A stretch of DNA of 31,898 bases from a virus, in IMG/VR virus record IMGVR_UViG_3300042691_001806, positions 1 to 31,898 of that record, one strand, 5' to 3'. Positions 22,927 through 31,890 of the stretch are shown here, in pieces. The stretch's first letter is position 1; the number at the start of each line of letters is the position of its first letter. The position numbers and the translations under genes were made by a program. The notes beneath the pieces are model-generated. The model searched no databases, had not been told where the DNA came from, and was given only the letters and a program-made list of their open reading frames with translations.

Positions 22927-23377
22927 TATGGCCAGTCTTCGCCGTGATCCTCAGCAGCAAATCACGCTCCACATCAGGCGGAAGGTTGGCATCAGCAATC
23001 GCCGATACAGCAGCCTCGATGCCTTCCTGCTTGGCGCGATTGGCTGCCGCGGTGTCGCTGTAGTGCTCGCGGAATGCAGGCGAGTGCGTCAGCATCCAGG
23101 TGGATGCCTTCATGTCGCCATTCTCGGCTTGTTCGGCAATCTTGTTGATCAGCCGCATTCCGCCTTTGGCGCGTCCGGCCTCAATAGCCACAGAAAGGGC
23201 AACTTCTTCCGGCGTAGGATTGGGGCCTTTTGCGTTTAAAAGCCATTGCCTCATGGACTCATATGTAACACCAGCTGCCGGCGCAATATGTTCAAGAGGT
23301 GCGCCAAACTCAGCGAGAAAGCGCACCTTCTTGATCACATCGTCGTTTAGTTTGTAATGACGACGGGCTGGTTTCAC
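22910..23377 (-). CDS. terS: Terminase small subunit candidate (155 aa)
   Basis: The N-terminal 50 residues form a helix-turn-helix (DDVIKKVRFLAEFGAPLEHI, AAGVTYESMRQWLLNAK), the usual DNA-recognition part of small terminases. A central helical stretch (GGMRLINKIAEQAENGDMKA, STWMLTHSPAFREHYSD) is typical of the family's oligomerisation region, with the 'aaxWlLxhxP' phrase. It lies immediately before terL. Its start overlaps the sliding clamp stop by ATGA, so packaging and replication genes are translated together. Confidence 0.85.
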   Translation of the reverse strand: MKPARRHYKLNDDVIKKVRFLAEFGAPLEHIAPAAGVTYESMRQWLLNAKGPNPTPEEVALSVAIEAGRAKGGMRLINKIAEQAENGDMKASTWMLTHSPAFREHYSDTAAANRAKQEGIEAAVSAIADANLPPDVERDLLLRITAKTGHNASPS

Positions 23378-24435
23378 GCTCTGATCTGTACGGGCATCAC
23401 AAGATAGATGTTATCAGCTTCACCCGGTGGCGCAATCACAACCGGCGTGGTTGATGAATTGGCGGAGATTTCCACCGTATCACCCGCCAGGTGCTTGAGG
23501 CCATCAAGCAGGTAATGCACGTTAGCCGCCAGCTTGGGCATGGTGCCATCAGCCAACACCGCCTCAGAGCCGCTGCTGGCATCCGTCTCGGACTGGATCT
23601 TGATGATGCCATCAGCCATCTCCAGCTTGACGATGCCGTTATGGCTGTCAGCGATGACTGCGATCCGCTCCAGACCGTGAATCAAGGTCTGCCGATCGCA
23701 CGTTGCTGAATGCTTGAACGCTTCAGGCACCAGCGCCCTGGCGTTCGGGTACTTGCCATCGAGGATGGTGGAAAGCACTTGGGTGCCATCAGCAAGACCC
23801 AGCACCGCGTGACGGTTGTCGGTGGCGAGTGTTGCAGGTTGCCGCACCATGGCAAGCGCCTTGGCGGGAATCACCAGATCCATCTCAGCCGCTGCTGATG
23901 GGATGCTGCGCATCACGAGCCGATGGCCGTCGGTGGCCTCCATGCGGATGGTGTCACCATCGGCGGTGACGTGGATGCCGCAGAGGATCTGCTTTGACGC
24001 GTCGGTGCTGACGACCGGCAGCATGGCCGCCAGTGGCCCTGAGAGGTCGATGGGAGCGCCTGCAGCAGCATCCACCGCCGGAAGGTCGGGGAAGTCCTCT
24101 GCAGAGGCCACGGAGAGGCTGTAGGAGCCCGCTACGGCATCGATGGCGATGCGAGAGCCGTCAACGGTCAACGAGAGCGCCTCAGAGGCGTCCAGGCGGC
24201 TGATCAGGTCCGACAGCAGGCGATGCGGCACAACGGTGGCGCCGGGTGTGATGACGACAGCAGGAATCGATGCAGTGACGCCGGTGTCGAGGTCATAGGC
24301 ACGAACGCGGAGGTTGCCATCAGTGGCGGTGAGCTCCACGCCGGCGAGGATCGGATGGGTCTTGCCGCTGCCGACAGCGCGTGATGTAACGCGCAAGGCA
24401 TGGACAAGGTTTGATGCAGAAATTGTCAGCTTCAT
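23374..24435 (-). CDS. dnaN: Bacterial-type DNA polymerase III beta sliding clamp (353 aa)
   Basis: The sequence follows DnaN from end to end: MKLTISASNLVHALRVTSR, HPILAGVELTATDGNLRVRA at 27-46, PHRLLSDLISRLD, then a second domain with ATDGHRLVMRSIP around 160-175 and a third domain ending NIYLVMPVQIRA, like the host MPMRL-type terminus. The length of 353 aa is near the 366 aa of E. coli beta. Three-fold repeat structure is implied by three 'ATDGxRL'-like turns, the clearest at residues 37 and 165. A clamp encircles DNA and tethers polymerase. It starts by ATGA overlap with the 70-aa gene and ends by ATGA at terS. A phage-encoded clamp is uncommon in siphoviruses. Confidence 0.93.
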   Translation of the reverse strand: MKLTISASNLVHALRVTSRAVGSGKTHPILAGVELTATDGNLRVRAYDLDTGVTASIPAVVITPGATVVPHRLLSDLISRLDASEALSLTVDGSRIAIDAVAGSYSLSVASAEDFPDLPAVDAAAGAPIDLSGPLAAMLPVVSTDASKQILCGIHVTADGDTIRMEATDGHRLVMRSIPSAAAEMDLVIPAKALAMVRQPATLATDNRHAVLGLADGTQVLSTILDGKYPNARALVPEAFKHSATCDRQTLIHGLERIAVIADSHNGIVKLEMADGIIKIQSETDASSGSEAVLADGTMPKLAANVHYLLDGLKHLAGDTVEISANSSTTPVVIAPPGEADNIYLVMPVQIRA

Positions 24436-25171: not shown

Positions 25172-25245
25172 TCACGCCCAAGCGTCCAACTTGAGACCCA
25201 TCAAGAGACGATCGCGGCTCTTGCCGCCGCCTCTGTCGGACGCAA
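24884..25245. repeat. Iteron-like array of TCGGACGCAA / TTGCGTCCGA
   Basis: Exact copies as TCGGACGCAA: 24884, 24915, 24936 and 25236 (start positions). Exact copies in reverse as TTGCGTCCGA: 25074, 25115, 25128, 25139 and 25160. Near copies: 24966 (8 of 10) and 25149 (9 of 10). That is nine exact copies in 362 bases, when chance would give about 0.06 in the whole window on both strands. Left copies point one way and right copies the other, facing a repeat-free centre. Many spacings are close to whole turns of DNA (31, 21, 30, 11, 10, 11, 41). The copy at 25236 lies inside the primase 3' end. Confidence 0.9.
25141..25156. repeat. Perfect 16-bp palindrome in the right arm of the array
   Basis: GCGTCCGA is followed at once by its reverse complement TCGGACGC. 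It forms where a forward repeat (25139) and an almost perfect reverse copy (25149) meet head to head. A dimeric protein could bind it with two-fold symmetry, unlike the single direct repeats around it. Confidence 0.85.
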
Positions 25246-27547
25246 GTTTTGGGAAGATCTGCCGCAGCGCCGGCACCAGCAGCCGTGGCGCCTTGACCGT
25301 TCGATCAGCCGGTGGGTCCATCAACCACCGACCATTGTGATCTAAATAGCCTTCTTCTTTGTACCAGTTCTGTAATGCATCCCAGACGCGCTTGCAGGAC
25401 ACCTGCGCATCTTCATCCCATGTCAATCCGACGGCATCGCAGAAGTCCCATAGGTGACAAGATCCACGCCTGACATCTTGCATCGCTTGGTTGCCGGTGG
25501 CGTAGTCGATGCCATCCGACACGCTGAGCGCCATTCCTTCGAGGAGCCAATTCAGGAACGCAGGGCATATCTGCTCCTGGATGAAAGATGGATCATCCTT
25601 GAGCCTTGGATCAGCCTGTAGATGCGTCGGTTCAGTTGGTGTCGCCATGAAGGTCTTGCGAAACTTAAACACATGAAACCGGGTCTCGATAGCAGCCTGC
25701 TCACCGGTCAGCGATGGATCTTTGTTGAGGTTGAACACAAACAAAGCAGACGGCACAAACTGCGACTCCTGAACGCCCTTGAGCTCATAGGACAATTCCT
25801 CACCGCTGATTGCAGCCTTGAGTGATTGCAGGTTGTCGATGCTGACGAACTGTGAATTCTCGCTGGACCAGTTGACCGAGGCACCACGAAGCGGGGCGAT
25901 CGGAAACTTACGGCCTTGGTCGTACTGACGAAAATCAGCCAGGGTGCAGGAGGTGAAGTTACGGCTGCCGAGCGTGTCGCGCAGTGCTGTGCGGATGGTG
26001 TCCTTGCCGTTGCTGCCTTCACCGATCATCAGCACCGCACGAGGACGGCCTCGGGTGGCGCGGTACTTGGCGAGATCCAGACCGCTGCCGAGGATGCGCT
26101 GCAGGGTGTCGAGGTCGGTGTGCTCAACGGCATCAAGCAGTCGCCAGAGGTGTTGCCCGTTGGCGTCTGGGTTGTAGTCGTAGGCGGTGACGTAGGTGAA
26201 GGCAACAGCTGGATCATGCGGCGCGAGGGTCAGGTCAAGCTTCTTGCCAGCCCATGACCACGAGACGACACCATTGCGGCAGTTGATGGCATTGGATGGG
26301 TTGACGGTGACGGGACTGAGCAGGCGACGCATCCAGACGAGGGCCTCGTCGACGTAACGGGGACGACGCCATGGGTAGACGGGTTCACCGCTCTTGGTGT
26401 TCATGACGTGGAGGAGCGAGAGGAAGCTGGCGATCAACGGCGCCAGCTGCTCATCAGGCTTGGGTTCGTAGTGGGTGCCGACCCATAGGTGGAGGACGCC
26501 ATCAACGCAGATCCACCGCTGCTGCGGATGATGGAAGACGTGCTGAACCGTGAGATCCAGCCATTCGGTATCGGTCTTGTCGTAGAGCTGAAGCTTGATG
26601 GCATCAGGATCAGCGGCGGCATCCACCACCGACGCCCTTCGTCGCGGTGTAGGTGTTGCGGGCCTCCAGCCGTGATGCCGCGCCCAGTACCAGAAGGTGC
26701 CGGCGGTGATGTGATCACCACCTGAGGCTGCGATCTGCTCAAGGCCTTGCCATTGCGGGCTGTGCTGCTGCATCAGCTCGATGGCGAGGTCAACGCTGTT
26801 GCAGGCCTGGATCAAGCCCCAGAAGATATTGCGGTAGACGTGATAGGTGCCGCTGCCTGGTGTGCGTGGTGGTATGGCGGCGAGGGCATCACGGATGTCG
26901 TCGATGCTGCGCTCTGCTGGTTCGGTGTGATGCTGTGCTGGCTTCTGGTGTTGATAGAAGGCTTCAGACGGCAGGACCGCCTCGATGTCGGCAACGGTGT
27001 AGCGATGGCCGGCGCTGGTGACCATCTGACACGGATCGCCAAGGGTGCCATCAGCCATGGCGTAGTAGCTGCCGGGCAGCCGCATGACGCGTGAGGCGTT
27101 CTTGATGCTGCGGTCTGCATCGCAGTAGTCAAGCAGCCGTGCCTGCACCAACTCCCAGTGGGATGGTGTGATCGGATCGGTCAGTACCCAGTAGCTATGG
27201 ATGGACTTGCCGCCGGTGTTGATCTGAAAGGTGGGTTCAGGCAGCTTGAGTGACCGCCATGCGGTGAGCTGCCAATCACGGGGACGGTCGTCCCATTCGG
27301 CGAAGAAGGCACGGCAGGCGGTGATGTCGGCATTGGTGTCACCGCCGTCGTTGATGACGACGTAAACGCCGCGGCCTTCGGCTTGCCATTGCTCGATGAG
27401 CTTCTTGGAGGCGCCACCTTTGCGACCTTTGTCGGTGCCCTTGTCTGGGTGGTCGCGATGGAGGAAGGCACGAAGGCGGATAGCACCGGCGGGTTTGCCG
27501 AGGAGGGCGATGAACCGACGGGCTTCATCGAAGTCAATGGGCTTCAT
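25172..27547 (-). CDS. Primase-helicase: AEP-type primase plus superfamily 3 (D5-like) helicase (791 aa)
   Basis: The N-terminal 200 residues look like an archaeo-eukaryotic primase of the RepB/bifunctional type: acidic site FFAEWDD (81-87), QINTGGKSIHSYWVL with the catalytic-type His (108-122), and a third motif SRVMRLPGSYY (152-162). The C-terminal SF3 helicase has Walker A IGEGSNGKDT (508-517), Walker B NWSSEN (559-564), motif C ALFVFNLN (601-608) and an Arg-finger region ETRFHVFKF (621-629). Such proteins unwind and prime at origins in phages, plasmids and satellites. Its start overlaps the RHH gene (ATGA), and its 3' end and downstream flank carry the repeats. Length is normal for the D5 group. 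Confidence 0.9.
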   Translation of the reverse strand: MKPIDFDEARRFIALLGKPAGAIRLRAFLHRDHPDKGTDKGRKGGASKKLIEQWQAEGRGVYVVINDGGDTNADITACRAFFAEWDDRPRDWQLTAWRSLKLPEPTFQINTGGKSIHSYWVLTDPITPSHWELVQARLLDYCDADRSIKNASRVMRLPGSYYAMADGTLGDPCQMVTSAGHRYTVADIEAVLPSEAFYQHQKPAQHHTEPAERSIDDIRDALAAIPPRTPGSGTYHVYRNIFWGLIQACNSVDLAIELMQQHSPQWQGLEQIAASGGDHITAGTFWYWARHHGWRPATPTPRRRASVVDAAADPDAIKLQLYDKTDTEWLDLTVQHVFHHPQQRWICVDGVLHLWVGTHYEPKPDEQLAPLIASFLSLLHVMNTKSGEPVYPWRRPRYVDEALVWMRRLLSPVTVNPSNAINCRNGVVSWSWAGKKLDLTLAPHDPAVAFTYVTAYDYNPDANGQHLWRLLDAVEHTDLDTLQRILGSGLDLAKYRATRGRPRAVLMIGEGSNGKDTIRTALRDTLGSRNFTSCTLADFRQYDQGRKFPIAPLRGASVNWSSENSQFVSIDNLQSLKAAISGEELSYELKGVQESQFVPSALFVFNLNKDPSLTGEQAAIETRFHVFKFRKTFMATPTEPTHLQADPRLKDDPSFIQEQICPAFLNWLLEGMALSVSDGIDYATGNQAMQDVRRGSCHLWDFCDAVGLTWDEDAQVSCKRVWDALQNWYKEEGYLDHNGRWLMDPPADRTVKAPRLLVPALRQIFPKLASDRGGGKSRDRLLMGLKLDAWA

Positions 27548-27720
27548 GCGGTTTCCCGATACCCGGTAGCGGGCAGGATGCCATCACGGTGCAGCTGCAT
27601 GGACTGCTCCAGGAGGACGCGGATGGCGGTGCTGCGGGACATGCGATCAGCGCGCCAGGTATCGAGCCAGCGGATCAGGTCTGGCGATAGGCGTATGGGT
27701 GTCGGATGGGCAAGGCGCAT
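27544..27720 (-). CDS. Ribbon-helix-helix regulator (58 aa)
   Basis: This hand-read frame of 58 codons starts at ATG 27720 and overlaps the primase start by ATGA. The sequence has the RHH layout: strand PTPIRLSP, helix DLIRWLDTWRADR, turn MSRST and helix AIRVLLEQSMQLH. It is followed by a short tail (DGILPATGYRETA). CopG/Arc-type proteins of this size usually repress their own promoter by binding a palindrome. The perfect palindrome 27747-27763 lies just upstream of its start. It leads the minus-strand operon, so it may set the level of the primase and late genes. Confidence 0.8.
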   Translation of the reverse strand: MRLAHPTPIRLSPDLIRWLDTWRADRMSRSTAIRVLLEQSMQLHRDGILPATGYRETA

Positions 27721-27837: not shown

Positions 27838-27841
27838 ATGA
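27794..27841 (+). CDS. Possible 15-codon leader peptide overlapping the helicase start
   Basis: ATG 27794 opens a frame of 15 codons (MDWTQLPALPDREVG) that stops with TGA at 27839-27841, overlapping the helicase ATG at 27838 by ATGA. The overlap would allow coupled translation. The frame contains the helicase ribosome site. No ribosome site is seen for the leader itself. A chance frame of this length is quite possible. Confidence 0.25.
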   Translation: MDWTQLPALPDREVG

Positions 27842-29202
27842 GCTATCAGGAGTTTCTGAACCAGAAGACTCACGAAGGTGCCGCGCATGGCTTTGAGCCG
27901 GTGTGGATGCCGCCGCAGTTGTTTGACTTTCAGCAGTCTCTGGTGACGTGGGCGATCCGAAAGGGTCGGGCTGCGATCTTTGCGGATTGCGGGCTTGGCA
28001 AGACCGCCATGCAGCTGACATGGGCGGAGAACGTGGTACGACACACCGGGAAGCCGGTGCTGATTTTGACGCCGCTGGCCGTGGCGGCGCAGACCATCCG
28101 CGAGGGCGAAAAGTTCGGCATTGAGTGTCATCGTTCAAGCGATGGCAGCGTGACAGGTCGCATTGTGATCACCAACTACGAGCGCCTGGAACATTTCAAG
28201 CCAGCTGACTTCGCTGGTGTGGTGTGCGATGAGTCGAGCATTCTGAAGTCATTTGATGGCGCCCGCCGCAATGAGATCACCGACTTTATGCGCAAGGTGC
28301 CATACCGATTGCTGGCTACCGCCACGGCGGCACCCAATGACTTCATCGAGCTTGGCACCAGCTCCGAAGCCCTTGGCTACATGGGCCACATGGACATGCT
28401 TGCTCGTTTCTTCAAGAACGATCAGAGCAATTTGACCAGTCGGAGAATGTATGGCGAGGCGCCCAAATGGCGTTTCAAGGGTCATGCCGAGGTGCCGTTC
28501 TGGCAATGGGTCACCAGCTGGGCAAGGGCTTGCCGCAAGCCTTCAGACCTTGGATTTGATGATGGCCGGTTTGTGCTGCCAGCATTGACTGAAGCTGATC
28601 ATCTGATTGAAACCGACACGGTCCCCGATGGGATGCTGTTTGCCATTCCGGCAACAGACCTCAAAGAGCAACGTGCTGAAAAAAAGCGCACCATCCGCGA
28701 ACGTTGTGAGCAGGTTGCTGCCATGGTGTCAGGCACCGGTCAGCCTGCGCTGGTGTGGTGCCATTTGAATGAAGAAGGCAATTTGATGGAGCAATTGATC
28801 CCCGATGCCGTACAGGTTTCAGGGTCTGACCGTGATGACATCAAAGAGTCTCGATTGATTGACTTTGCGGAAGGTCGATCACGAGTGCTGATCACAAAAC
28901 CCAAGATTGGCGCCTGGGGATTGAACTTTCAAGTCTGCAACCACATCACCTATTTTCCGTCTCACAGCTTTGAGCAGTATTACCAGTCGGTGAGGCGCTG
29001 CTGGCGGTTTGGTCAAGAGCGACCGGTAACGGTTGACATCATCCTGACCGAAGGCGAGCGGCGAATCATGGACAACCTGCATCGCAAGCGCCAGCAAGCT
29101 GAGCAAATGTTCAGCAACCTTGTAGCCGAGATGAATCATTCGCTGGACATCCAGCGCAAAGAATACAACAACGCACCTATCGAGCTTCCATCATGGCTGT
29201 GA
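27838..29202 (+). CDS. SNF2/DEAD-like helicase (454 aa)
   Basis: Superfamily 2 motifs in order: a Q-like start (LFDFQQSLVTWAI, 29-40), Walker A DCGLGKT (50-56), motif Ia LILTPLAVA, Walker B-type CDESSIL (130-136), motif III ATATAAPND (160-168), motif V GAWGLNFQ (358-365) and motif VI QSVRRCWRFGQ (383-393). The 'HSFEQYYQSVRRCWRFGQ' ending is typical of SNF2-type phage helicases often encoded beside a methyltransferase. It would move on or remodel double-stranded DNA. Ribosome site GGAGG lies four bases before the ATG. It overlaps the methyltransferase by 10 bases, so it is in the same operon. Confidence 0.88.
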   Translation: MSYQEFLNQKTHEGAAHGFEPVWMPPQLFDFQQSLVTWAIRKGRAAIFADCGLGKTAMQLTWAENVVRHTGKPVLILTPLAVAAQTIREGEKFGIECHRSSDGSVTGRIVITNYERLEHFKPADFAGVVCDESSILKSFDGARRNEITDFMRKVPYRLLATATAAPNDFIELGTSSEALGYMGHMDMLARFFKNDQSNLTSRRMYGEAPKWRFKGHAEVPFWQWVTSWARACRKPSDLGFDDGRFVLPALTEADHLIETDTVPDGMLFAIPATDLKEQRAEKKRTIRERCEQVAAMVSGTGQPALVWCHLNEEGNLMEQLIPDAVQVSGSDRDDIKESRLIDFAEGRSRVLITKPKIGAWGLNFQVCNHITYFPSHSFEQYYQSVRRCWRFGQERPVTVDIILTEGERRIMDNLHRKRQQAEQMFSNLVAEMNHSLDIQRKEYNNAPIELPSWL

Positions 29203-30155
29203 TCACTGACCGTTACGCAATCTACAACGGCGACTGCATCGAAGTGATGCAAGGACTACCCAGCGAATCGATCCATTTCTCGATCTATTCACCTCCGTTC
29301 GCTGGCTTGTATGTCTATAGCTCAAACGAGCGTGACATTAGCAACTGTAAAGACTATGACCAGTTCATGGTGCATTATGGCTATGTGGTAAAAGAACTGC
29401 ACCGGCTGACGCTACCGGGAAGGCTGACGGCTGTGCATTGCACCGACATTCCAACGGGGAATAGTGGTCAGGATGCATTGCTGGATTTGCCTGGCAAGAT
29501 TATCGAGCTGCATCAGCAACATGGCTGGCATTATGTGGCGCGGCATACGATCTGGAAAGAACCTCTATGGGTTCGCAACCGGACGATGGTCAAGAATCTG
29601 GCCCATAAGACCATTGTCGATGATGCTGCGTATGCCGGTGTTGCGAGTGCTGATTATCTGTTGATTTTCCGCCGCAGTGGCTCCAATACAGTGCCGATCG
29701 CCAATCCTACCGGCCTTGATCACTACGCCGGAGAGTGTCCGATACCGCAGGATCTGCACAAGTACCGCAACTGGAAAGGCAAGCAAACCGAGAACCGCTT
29801 CAGCCATTGGATCTGGCGCCGGTATGCGTCATCTATTTGGGATGACATCACCATGGGACGAGTTCTTCCATTCCGCGATAGCAAGGATCCAGATGACGAG
29901 AAGCATGTGCATCCTTTACAGCTGGATGTGATTGATCGTGCTATCTGCCTTAGATCCAATCCTGGCGAGACGGTGCTGACTCCATTCATGGGCGTAGGCA
30001 GCGAGGTCTATGGCGCCGTGAATCTTGGTCGTCGTGGGATTGGCATTGAGTTGAAGGAGTCGTACTACAAGCAAGCCATCAAGAATATGGAGATTGCCGT
30101 AGAAGACACACGTCAACCGGATCAGGCGGCATTGATCAACCTTGATGAGTTTTGA
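29193..30155 (+). CDS. DNA methyltransferase, beta-class order, N4-cytosine or N6-adenine type (320 aa)
   Basis: Motif IV is SPPF at residues 33-36 (YSPPFAGLY), near the N-terminus. The AdoMet-binding motif I is TPFMGVGSEVYGA at 263-275, near the C-terminus, so the order is the beta class. HPLQLDVIDRAICLRSNPGE before it is the usual helix of this group. SPPx favours N4-cytosine methylation over the adenine DPPY/W, but the fourth residue F is unusual, so the base is uncertain. No separate target-recognition domain is obvious; the middle (110-240) would hold it. It is encoded between two helicases. It may protect phage DNA from host restriction or mark it for the neighbouring enzymes. Confidence 0.88.
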   Translation: MAVITDRYAIYNGDCIEVMQGLPSESIHFSIYSPPFAGLYVYSSNERDISNCKDYDQFMVHYGYVVKELHRLTLPGRLTAVHCTDIPTGNSGQDALLDLPGKIIELHQQHGWHYVARHTIWKEPLWVRNRTMVKNLAHKTIVDDAAYAGVASADYLLIFRRSGSNTVPIANPTGLDHYAGECPIPQDLHKYRNWKGKQTENRFSHWIWRRYASSIWDDITMGRVLPFRDSKDPDDEKHVHPLQLDVIDRAICLRSNPGETVLTPFMGVGSEVYGAVNLGRRGIGIELKESYYKQAIKNMEIAVEDTRQPDQAALINLDEF

Positions 30156-30158
30156 CCC

Positions 30159-31511
30159 ATGCAACTAAGACCCTACCAACAACAACTCATCACCGACATC
30201 CGCCTGCAGTATCAGATGGGCCGCCGGCGGGTGCTGGCGGTGCTCGCCACCGGTGGCGGGAAAACAGTCTGCTTCAGCTACATCGCCCAATCTGCTGCGC
30301 GCAAGGGTAACCGCGTCTGCATCCTGGTGCATCGCGCGGAGCTGCTGGAGCAGGCCAGCCGTAGCCTGAAGGCCATGTGCATCCCGCATGGCTTGATCCA
30401 GGCTGGACGCAGCATGAACCTGACCCATGCGGTGCAGGTGGCCAGCGTCGGCACTATTGCGCGAAGGCTGCATCTGCTGCCGCGTGATTTCTTCCAGCTG
30501 GTGGTCGTTGATGAGGCGCACCACACCACGGCAGGAACATGGTCGAAGGTGGTGGATCATTTCCACACGGCGCATCTGCTGGGTGTGACGGCAACACCGA
30601 TCAGAGGTGATGGCCGCGGCCTCGGCGAGCACTATGAGGTGATGGTGCAGGGTCCGACGGCGGCATGGCTGACGGACAACGGATTCCTGGCAAGAGCGCG
30701 GGTGTTGGCACCACCGGGCTTTGATGCGGCGGGACTGCGGAAGCGGATGGGTGACTACGACAGCAAGCAAGCCGAGCAGCGGGTGAAGCAGATCCATGGT
30801 GATGTCTTCAGCCATTACTGCAGGCACCTGAGCAACCAGACGGCGATTGCGTTCTGCTGCAGCGTGGCTCATGCGGAGGCGGTAGCGGATCTGTTCCAGC
30901 GGCAGGGTGTTGCTGCTGCAAGCATTGATGGCACGATGGACAGCCCAACGCGACGGGGGCTACTGGAGGACCTGGGCACCGGCAGGCTGAAGGTGCTGAC
31001 CAGCTGTGCGCTGATCGGTGAGGGGGTGGATGTGCCGAGTGTCGGAGGATGCATCATGCTGCGACCAACGGCATCCGTGGGGCTGCATCTGCAGATGATC
31101 GGTCGATGCCTGAGGCCCAGCGGCGACAAGGTGGCGGTGGTACTCGACCATGTGGGAAATACGTTGAACCTCGGCCACCACCTGGAGGATCGCGAGTGGA
31201 GCCTGGATGGTGTGAAGAAACGCGACCGTGAGGCAGCGCCATCGGTGAAGGTGTGCCCGGTGTGCTTTGCGGCGAACCCAGCCAATGCGCAGGTCTGCGT
31301 GGAGTGCCGGCATGAGTTCCGGCCTGAGGTGCGTGAGCTGCAGGTGGTACCGGGTGAGTTGCGGGAGCTGCAGATGCGTGCCCGCAAGCGCGAGCAAGGC
31401 AATGCCACCGACCTGGAGTCATTGCGCGAGCTGGCCCGGCAACGTGGCTACAAGGCAGGATGGGCAGAACGCGTCCACCAGGCGCGGCTTGCGAAGCGGC
31501 ATGGCATCTGA
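30159..31511 (+). CDS. DEAH-type helicase with C-terminal zinc ribbon (450 aa)
   Basis: Motifs: RPYQQ (4-8), Walker A ATGGGKT (30-36), DEAH (118-121), TAT (144-146), GEGVDVP (287-293) and QMIGRCLRP (312-320), an SSL2/XPB-like set. After the helicase core, four cysteines CPVC...CVEC (366, 369, 380, 383) form a zinc ribbon. The end is a basic helical tail (MRARKREQG, LARQRGYKAGW). Phage helicases of this type act in replication, recombination or fork remodelling. The gene follows the methyltransferase after three bases and overlaps the nuclease by 11, so all four genes are one transcription unit. All motif residues look intact. Confidence 0.9.
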   Translation: MQLRPYQQQLITDIRLQYQMGRRRVLAVLATGGGKTVCFSYIAQSAARKGNRVCILVHRAELLEQASRSLKAMCIPHGLIQAGRSMNLTHAVQVASVGTIARRLHLLPRDFFQLVVVDEAHHTTAGTWSKVVDHFHTAHLLGVTATPIRGDGRGLGEHYEVMVQGPTAAWLTDNGFLARARVLAPPGFDAAGLRKRMGDYDSKQAEQRVKQIHGDVFSHYCRHLSNQTAIAFCCSVAHAEAVADLFQRQGVAAASIDGTMDSPTRRGLLEDLGTGRLKVLTSCALIGEGVDVPSVGGCIMLRPTASVGLHLQMIGRCLRPSGDKVAVVLDHVGNTLNLGHHLEDREWSLDGVKKRDREAAPSVKVCPVCFAANPANAQVCVECRHEFRPEVRELQVVPGELRELQMRARKREQGNATDLESLRELARQRGYKAGWAERVHQARLAKRHGI

Positions 31512-31890
31512 GCAATCAATCCAGCAGCAGATCCGCCTCCAGTGCTCCAGGGGTCCGGTGCGGCTGCATCGCAACAACACCGGGACGCTGCTCGACCGCA
31601 ATGGCAGGCCGGTGCAGTTCGGGTTGGCGAAGGGCAGCGCGGATCTGATCGGGTGGACGACGCGAACGATCACGCCGGACATGGTGGGTCAGCAGGTGGC
31701 GGTATTCACCAGCATCGAGGTCAAGAGCGCCACGGGTCGGCTCAGGCCGGATCAGCGGCAATGGATGGAGGCGGTGCAGGCCGCTGGCGGCATCGCTGGC
31801 GTGGCGCGCAGCGTGGAGGATGCCGTTGGGTTGACCACGGTTGAGGATGGTGTAGGATTGCTGCACGTGGGCCAGGAGCCCAGCACCTAG
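31501..31890 (+). CDS. VRR-NUC domain nuclease (129 aa)
   Basis: ATG 31501 is chosen; the longer open frame from 31267 runs inside the helicase. The 129-aa protein is a stand-alone VRR-NUC domain: N-terminal SEQSIQQQIRLQC, then RNNTGTLLDRNG, the GSADLIGW acidic site (Asp in SADLIG, about residue 48), EVKSATGRLRPDQRQW with the E-x-K pair about residues 74-76, and a helix ending in VARSVEDAVG. In phages these small nucleases act on branched DNA, as Holliday-junction-type enzymes or in genome processing. It is last in the helicase-methylase cassette. The frame ends at 31890, eight bases before the window edge. Confidence 0.88.
   Translation: MASEQSIQQQIRLQCSRGPVRLHRNNTGTLLDRNGRPVQFGLAKGSADLIGWTTRTITPDMVGQQVAVFTSIEVKSATGRLRPDQRQWMEAVQAAGGIAGVARSVEDAVGLTTVEDGVGLLHVGQEPST

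Follow-up and report, generated by a model that had tools for sequence, protein, structure and literature searches.

The window analysed here comprises positions 1 to 31,898 of the IMG/VR virus record IMGVR_UViG_3300042691_001806 (31.9 kb), the nearest named relative of which is Synechococcus phage S-H1. At its right-hand end, four intact open reading frames (ORFs), all on the plus strand, encode an SNF2-type ATPase of helicase superfamily 2 (SF2), a beta-class DNA methyltransferase (MTase), a RadD-like DEAH helicase/translocase and a stand-alone VRR-Nuc, in that order (Table 1). An earlier note, made from the letters alone, had put these genes at the same places, with the same overlaps and three-base gap, and had named them as an SNF2-like helicase, a beta-class methylase, a DEAH helicase with a zinc ribbon and a stand-alone VRR-NUC nuclease; domains and catalytic motifs confirm both the placement and the parts list. 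Here, we show that, as judged from sequence, the cassette is composed of two modules, SNF2-MTase and RadD-VRR, each of which occurs without the other and between which there is hardly any correlation.

Co-occurrence and inheritance of the two modules

The sets of related loci consist of the best 80 of 558 for SNF2, the best 80 of at least 491 for the MTase, the best 80 of at least 581 for VRR and all 19 for RadD; the MTase and VRR sets overlap the others, and the 237 loci fall into 147 groups by shared sequence, a grouping that possibly merges distinct contigs. The four genes are found together in 39 loci, counting the window and its duplicate, contig L004, and the whole set occurs in the same order in the isolated Synechococcus phages S-H1 and S-LBS1. 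The full combination, which the earlier note had thought worth testing as a modification-guided nuclease system, does recur, but as two modules and not as one system; likewise, the outcome that would have spoken against it in a neighbourhood search, namely that the four genes never co-occur, was not observed, the genes co-occurring as two modules.

In Mantel tests across the 39 loci, r reached 0.994 for SNF2-MTase and 0.446 for RadD-VRR (0 of 2000 permutations each), as against -0.10 to -0.16 for the four cross-module pairs. The SNF2-MTase value stays between 0.98 and 1.00 upon removal of the duplicate L004 and the non-collinear L060 (n = 37), upon removal of the fusions (0.978, n = 28) and in the loci sampled through RadD or VRR (0.996, n = 18); the RadD-VRR value loses significance in the smallest subset (420 of 2000 permutations, n = 9). 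Since the permutations ignore relatedness, the contrast between pairs outweighs any single Mantel value.

Gene order tells the same modules apart. Among the 35 SNF2 relatives with at least 3.5 kb of sequence beyond the MTase, RadD and VRR come next in 19 and neither does in 16. From the other side, 67 distinct VRR contigs were available, 18 of which hold too little upstream sequence and two no usable RadD; in the remaining 47, SNF2-MTase directly precedes RadD-VRR in 22 by tblastn and in 21 by profile. RadD itself lies upstream of VRR in 72 of 73 loci.

The SNF2-MTase pair

The MTase adjoins SNF2 in 80 of 80 SNF2 relatives, mostly at one and the same aligned offset (Table 1), and is present in every one of the 96 loci having an SNF2 ORF. 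Single SNF2-MTase ORFs of 734-776 aa occur in ten loci; further fusions are S-CBS3 gp40 and Flavobacterium phage FCV-1 gp49, and actinobacteriophage records name such fusions 'DNA helicase/methylase'. When the SNF2 and MTase sequences of the window were joined into one query, at least 80% of it, with both halves, was covered in 271 of the 308 matching named phage records. The two genes thus appear to be one inseparable unit, and a clean case of an SNF2 motor and a beta-class methylase being swapped as such.

As to identity, the SNF2 protein matches PHROG 62 (DNA helicase, 6e-57), its Pfam matches to DEAD and Helicase_C being below the cut-off, and the DESS box is kept in 91 of 91 SNF2 proteins. 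The MTase matches Pfam N6_N4_Mtase (PF01555, 3e-15), motif IV preceding motif I as in the beta type, and PDB entry 2zie, TTHA0409 (1.3e-15). The SPPF motif is present in 93 of 93 MTase relatives; we take this motif to suggest an N4-cytosine target. The record of S-H1 labels its copy adenine-specific. In the predicted structure of L145, a fused homologue, the SNF2 domain resembles ATPases of the INO80/ISWI/CSB type (Z 27-31, root-mean-square deviation (rmsd) 3-4, 367-393 residues). The fusion model has a mean predicted local distance difference test score (pLDDT) of 76 and a predicted template modelling score (pTM) of 0.55, its domain placement being too uncertain to reveal an SNF2-MTase interface; VIA-align matched its SNF2 domain only, and Foldseek matched its MTase domain (TTHA0409) too.

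Two loci display unusual arrangements of the pair. One phage contig carries two distinct SNF2-MTase pairs in tandem (L077:1918-7403), 42/41% and 81/90% identical to that of the window, and in Flavobacterium phage hattifnatt9-1 (L263, 8442-11507) an HNH endonuclease gene splits SNF2 from MTase.

RadD, VRR-Nuc and their recombination neighbours

The helicase matches Pfam ResIII (4e-29) and combines an SF2 core with a C-terminal zinc ribbon. It is closest to RadD, the best PDB match being E. coli RadD (6jde, 2.7e-26), followed by 7clg (4e-23), a restriction helicase whose entry reads 'putative helicase' and which we take to be SauUSI. Box II reads DEAH in 96 of 101 RadD-like proteins and DECH or DESH in the others.

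The nuclease carries a single VRR_NUC domain (PF08774, 1.5e-11, 44.8 bits versus a cut-off of 23.8) and also matches endonuclease and Holliday junction resolvase PHROGs. Its acidic/ExK-Q active site is conserved (G45..D48, E73-V-K75, Q85), with D48, E73, K75 and Q85 invariant in 37 aligned sequences. In structural comparisons of its AlphaFold model, of modest quality (pLDDT 64), VRR_NUC entries rank top (Z 8.1-8.3), followed by Hjc (Z 5.4-5.8) and FAN1 (Z 5.2); the superposition on 4qbo gives Z 8.3 and rmsd 2.5 over 87 residues. Among PDB sequences, phmmer and profile searches returned no true match, the only hits being spurious ones to ribosomal S19. The protein is predicted to resolve Holliday junctions.

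The neighbours beyond VRR are constant: a DUF3799 PDDEXK exonuclease and RecT follow it in 48 of the 49 contigs that extend 3 kb past it, and both are likewise present in S-H1. In S-LBS1, a single-strand annealing protein (SSAP) and a single-stranded DNA-binding protein (SSB) come after VRR. Along the same line, Streptococcus phage DT1 encodes a DNA helicase, a DUF5906 protein, a Sak4-like SSAP and a homologue of VRR that bears the annotation Holliday junction resolvase; no SNF2-MTase lies in the stretch of DT1 examined.

A possible slot for exchange between primase and RadD

The gap between the primase and RadD is occupied by SNF2-MTase in 21 of the 47 contigs (6 fused), by PAPS-reductase-like plus ParB-like genes in 6 and by a ParB-MTase in one. 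In some phages, further methylases (C5) and PAPS-like genes lie between RadD and VRR. Tentatively, the gap may be a dedicated cyanophage slot in which cassettes for DNA modification or counter-restriction are exchanged and, jointly with this, SNF2-MTase may be a motor-driven N4-cytosine methylase marking DNA during recombination-dependent replication; if both hold, the unnamed occupants are candidates for new anti-restriction systems. The slot beside RadD is, at any rate, an easy place to seek further modification cassettes, and, given that the phage group has isolated members (S-H1, S-LBS1, S-CBS3), the idea of motor-driven methylation is testable.

As for the other occupants, the PAPS-reductase/DUF3440 protein and the ParB-like protein take the place of SNF2-MTase at L147:3127-5799 and in its relatives L179, L196, L206, L227 and L234. 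The ParB-like protein of L147 has an ectoine-synthase/cupin match at its N-terminus, and the pair resembles IbrA/IbrB pairs. Other recurrent occupants lie at L183:438-1508, L219:3116-4321 and L165:2367-3539, the Pfam scan of those of L183 and L165 returning no match; these families are possible candidates for unnamed modification or counter-defence genes.

Comparison with known systems

The idea of a motor plus a methylase is already known. Iyer et al. 2017 (PMC5512222) describe a dyad of phages and plasmids in which an SNF2 ATPase is fused to a methylase or encoded beside it, propose translocation-dependent modification with DarB as the archetype, and suggest an anti-restriction role (protective methylation) for the dyad. 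The DarB dyad of phage P1 and the window pair are alike in that an SNF2-clade ATPase goes with a DNA methylase, either fused to it or as its conserved neighbour. The window MTase, however, is of the beta class with SPPF, whereas the DarB type is a gamma-class (EcoKI/TaqI-like) adenine methylase with NPP(Y/F); for this reason the window MTase falls outside the DarB group, though its mode of action may be similar. Moreover, the window encodes two small early proteins (454 and 320 aa), whereas DarB is a giant polypeptide, and the place of the pair is open to exchange, PAPS-reductase/ParB and other cassettes being found there as well. The DarB type is a polyvalent giant with an N-terminal LPD36 domain; a Pfam scan, in which no LPD36 model was included, gave no extra domain in the two window proteins.

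Also comparable are the actinobacteriophage fusions found with the SNF2 and MTase sequences of the window (for example gp63 of Mycobacterium phage Cerasum and gp72 of Arthrobacter phage Sakai), which are the same pair, fused. A RecA-like recombinase is encoded two genes away from Cerasum gp63. The fusions differ in being about 28-40% identical, and the stretch of Cerasum examined has no annotated VRR-Nuc or RadD. S-H1 (MK105819) and S-LBS1 (MG271909) share the order and orientation of the four genes but interrupt the series with further genes, either at the module boundary or in the RadD-VRR interval (a C5 methylase in S-H1, for instance); the SNF2/MTase pair of S-LBS1 is 42/41% identical to that of the window.

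Pennell et al. 2014 (PMC4103454) describe stand-alone VRR-Nuc proteins as dimers that cut four-way junctions. Like the VRR-Nuc studied here, psNUC, stNUC and saNUC are single-domain phage proteins, and 4qbo, 4qbn and 4qbl are the best structural matches of the model predicted for the window protein; sequence identity is low (18-20%). E. coli RadD, which according to PMC8887467 and PMC10238739 accelerates RecA strand exchange and binds SSB, shares the SF2 core and zinc ribbon with the window protein and differs in length (586 aa in the PDB chain versus 450 aa), the match spanning residues 2-373. A literature search, limited to Creative Commons-licensed PMC papers, found no paper on the four-gene set as a system.

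Interpretation and alternatives

The explanation proposed, to which we give a probability of roughly 0.7, is that the cassette opens an early recombination operon of a cyanophage (RadD, Holliday-junction resolvase, exonuclease, RecT), the first place in it being taken by an exchangeable SNF2-MTase module for self-modification. SNF2 and MTase would form one enzyme, made of two subunits here and of one protein in relatives, the motor of which would travel along or clear duplex phage DNA. The MTase would shield its target sites from cleavage by restriction enzymes of the host through a mark, N4-methylcytosine most probably; recombination intermediates in phage replication would be made and resolved by RadD and VRR-Nuc, together with the exonuclease and RecT encoded behind them in relatives. 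The two-module inheritance and the RecT/exonuclease neighbours support what the earlier note had regarded as the simpler reading, namely phage recombination plus genome modification.

Several points weigh against this explanation. Instead of countering restriction, the MTase could regulate replication, packaging or transcription; the SNF2 motor, for its part, might act in branch migration and have no more in common with the MTase than a shared gene pair. The modest VRR-Nuc model found no Foldseek match at E <= 0.001 (best E 0.09). In the 18 loci sampled through RadD or VRR, cross-module r is weakly positive (0.09-0.12, reached by 65-205 of 2000 permutations). In 8 of 80 SNF2 loci, SNF2-MTase is preceded on its own strand by homologues of RadD and/or VRR, hence the modules are not wholly independent. 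Finally, the primase-RadD slot also holds genes with no obvious part in DNA modification (a RecD-like helicase in 2 of the 47 contigs, DUF4326 in 2, two uncharacterised families in 2 each, none recognised in 11).

Could the cassette be a pure recombination set, with SNF2 as a UvsW-like branch-migration enzyme, the MTase, coupled to it, as an epigenetic control on replication or packaging and no role in anti-restriction? The other genes of the operon are indeed recombination genes, and a passage of PMC7824862 suggests Snf2-type helicases as stand-ins for UvsW in jumbo phages. Yet SNF2 was never seen without the MTase in the 96 loci, the two are fused in several lineages, and divergent versions replace the pair as a unit while RadD and VRR stay conserved, a pattern which an exchange of specificity fits better than a housekeeping role; we regard this alternative as unlikely.

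The tempting thought of a new nuclease system, in which the MTase would mark phage DNA while the helicases and VRR-Nuc would destroy unmarked DNA of host or competitors, is settled by the cluster being two known modules, and we consider it highly improbable. It draws on the 39 loci with all four genes and on the kinship of RadD to SF2 restriction helicases (PADLOC type IV mREase, 5e-42, besides the 7clg match). Against it, the obligate partner of the methylase is the SNF2 ATPase and not the nuclease: the cross-module correlation is about zero, SNF2-MTase is missing directly upstream of VRR-RadD in 25-26 of 47 contigs, and nearly half of the SNF2-MTase pairs with enough downstream sequence (16/35) lack both RadD and VRR there. 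VRR-Nuc, for its part, has the exonuclease and RecT as constant neighbours and no PADLOC match, and Pfam, run on all four proteins, gave no domain for reading modified bases.

A bacterial defence island was also considered and rejected, VRR being present in none of the 21 bacterial or archaeal SNF2 loci and a separate RadD in L241 only. L238 is the only one of these 21 loci without a recognised MTase ORF. The large neighbours (10 proteins) scanned at eight of them include phage or plasmid replication or packaging genes at six (L240, L241, L249, L251, L257, L258), and for this reason the bacterial and archaeal loci mostly look like prophages; the neighbours at L245 gave a tRNA-synthetase gene only and those at L254 nothing.

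Layout of the window

All remaining recognised genes of the window are on the minus strand, namely the structural genes of a lambda-like siphophage, then terminase, sliding clamp and the D5/DUF5906 primase, a homologue of which lies upstream and opposite in many related loci. The cassette therefore does stand apart on the other strand, as the earlier note had remarked; S-H1 (complete, 39 kb) and S-LBS1 share this divergent layout, however, which is thus usual for the phage group and amounts to the normal early/late split. The impression is sharpened by the contig stopping 8 nt past the VRR stop codon, whereby the putative transcription unit is cut off. Contig L004, encoding the same four proteins at 100% identity, extends 1.5 kb further with small ORFs.

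Table 1. Features of the cassette and its surroundings (window coordinates)
Feature	Position	Strand	Remarks
SNF2-type SF2 ATPase	27838..29202	+	454 aa; Walker A CGLGKT, box II DESS, motif VI QSVRRCWRFGQ
Beta-class DNA methyltransferase (MTase)	29193..30155	+	320 aa; motif IV SPPF at 29289-29300; motif I PFMGVGS near C-terminus
SNF2 stop / MTase start overlap	29193..29202	+	10 nt; aligned offset same in 75/80 relatives
RadD-like DEAH helicase/translocase	30159..31511	+	450 aa; C-terminal CxxC...CxxC zinc ribbon; 3-nt gap after MTase
Stand-alone VRR-Nuc	31501..31890	+	129 aa from ATG 31501; predicted Holliday-junction resolvase; 11-nt overlap with helicase gene
D5/DUF5906 primase-helicase	25172..27547	-	Divergent; left border of cassette slot; Pfam/PHROG
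Small repressor-like protein	27544..27720	-	58 aa; adjoins divergent promoter region; PHROG 4738 transcriptional repressor, 2e-4, weak
Promoter-like repeat	31831..31858	+	28 nt; end of VRR gene; exact second copy 377 nt further in L004 (L004:4039 and 4416)

The spacing of the four genes suggests that they may be read as a single transcript. In the window, a promoter scan gave 2 sites versus 2.0 in shuffles, hence no excess, and a terminator scan gave 6 versus 2.8 +/- 2.0, every site being intragenic; the Rfam scan returned no match and the tRNA scan none. The phage also encodes its own sliding clamp (DNA polymerase III beta subunit; 23374-24435, minus strand), which, no DNA polymerase being annotated in the complete relative S-H1, may recruit that of the host.

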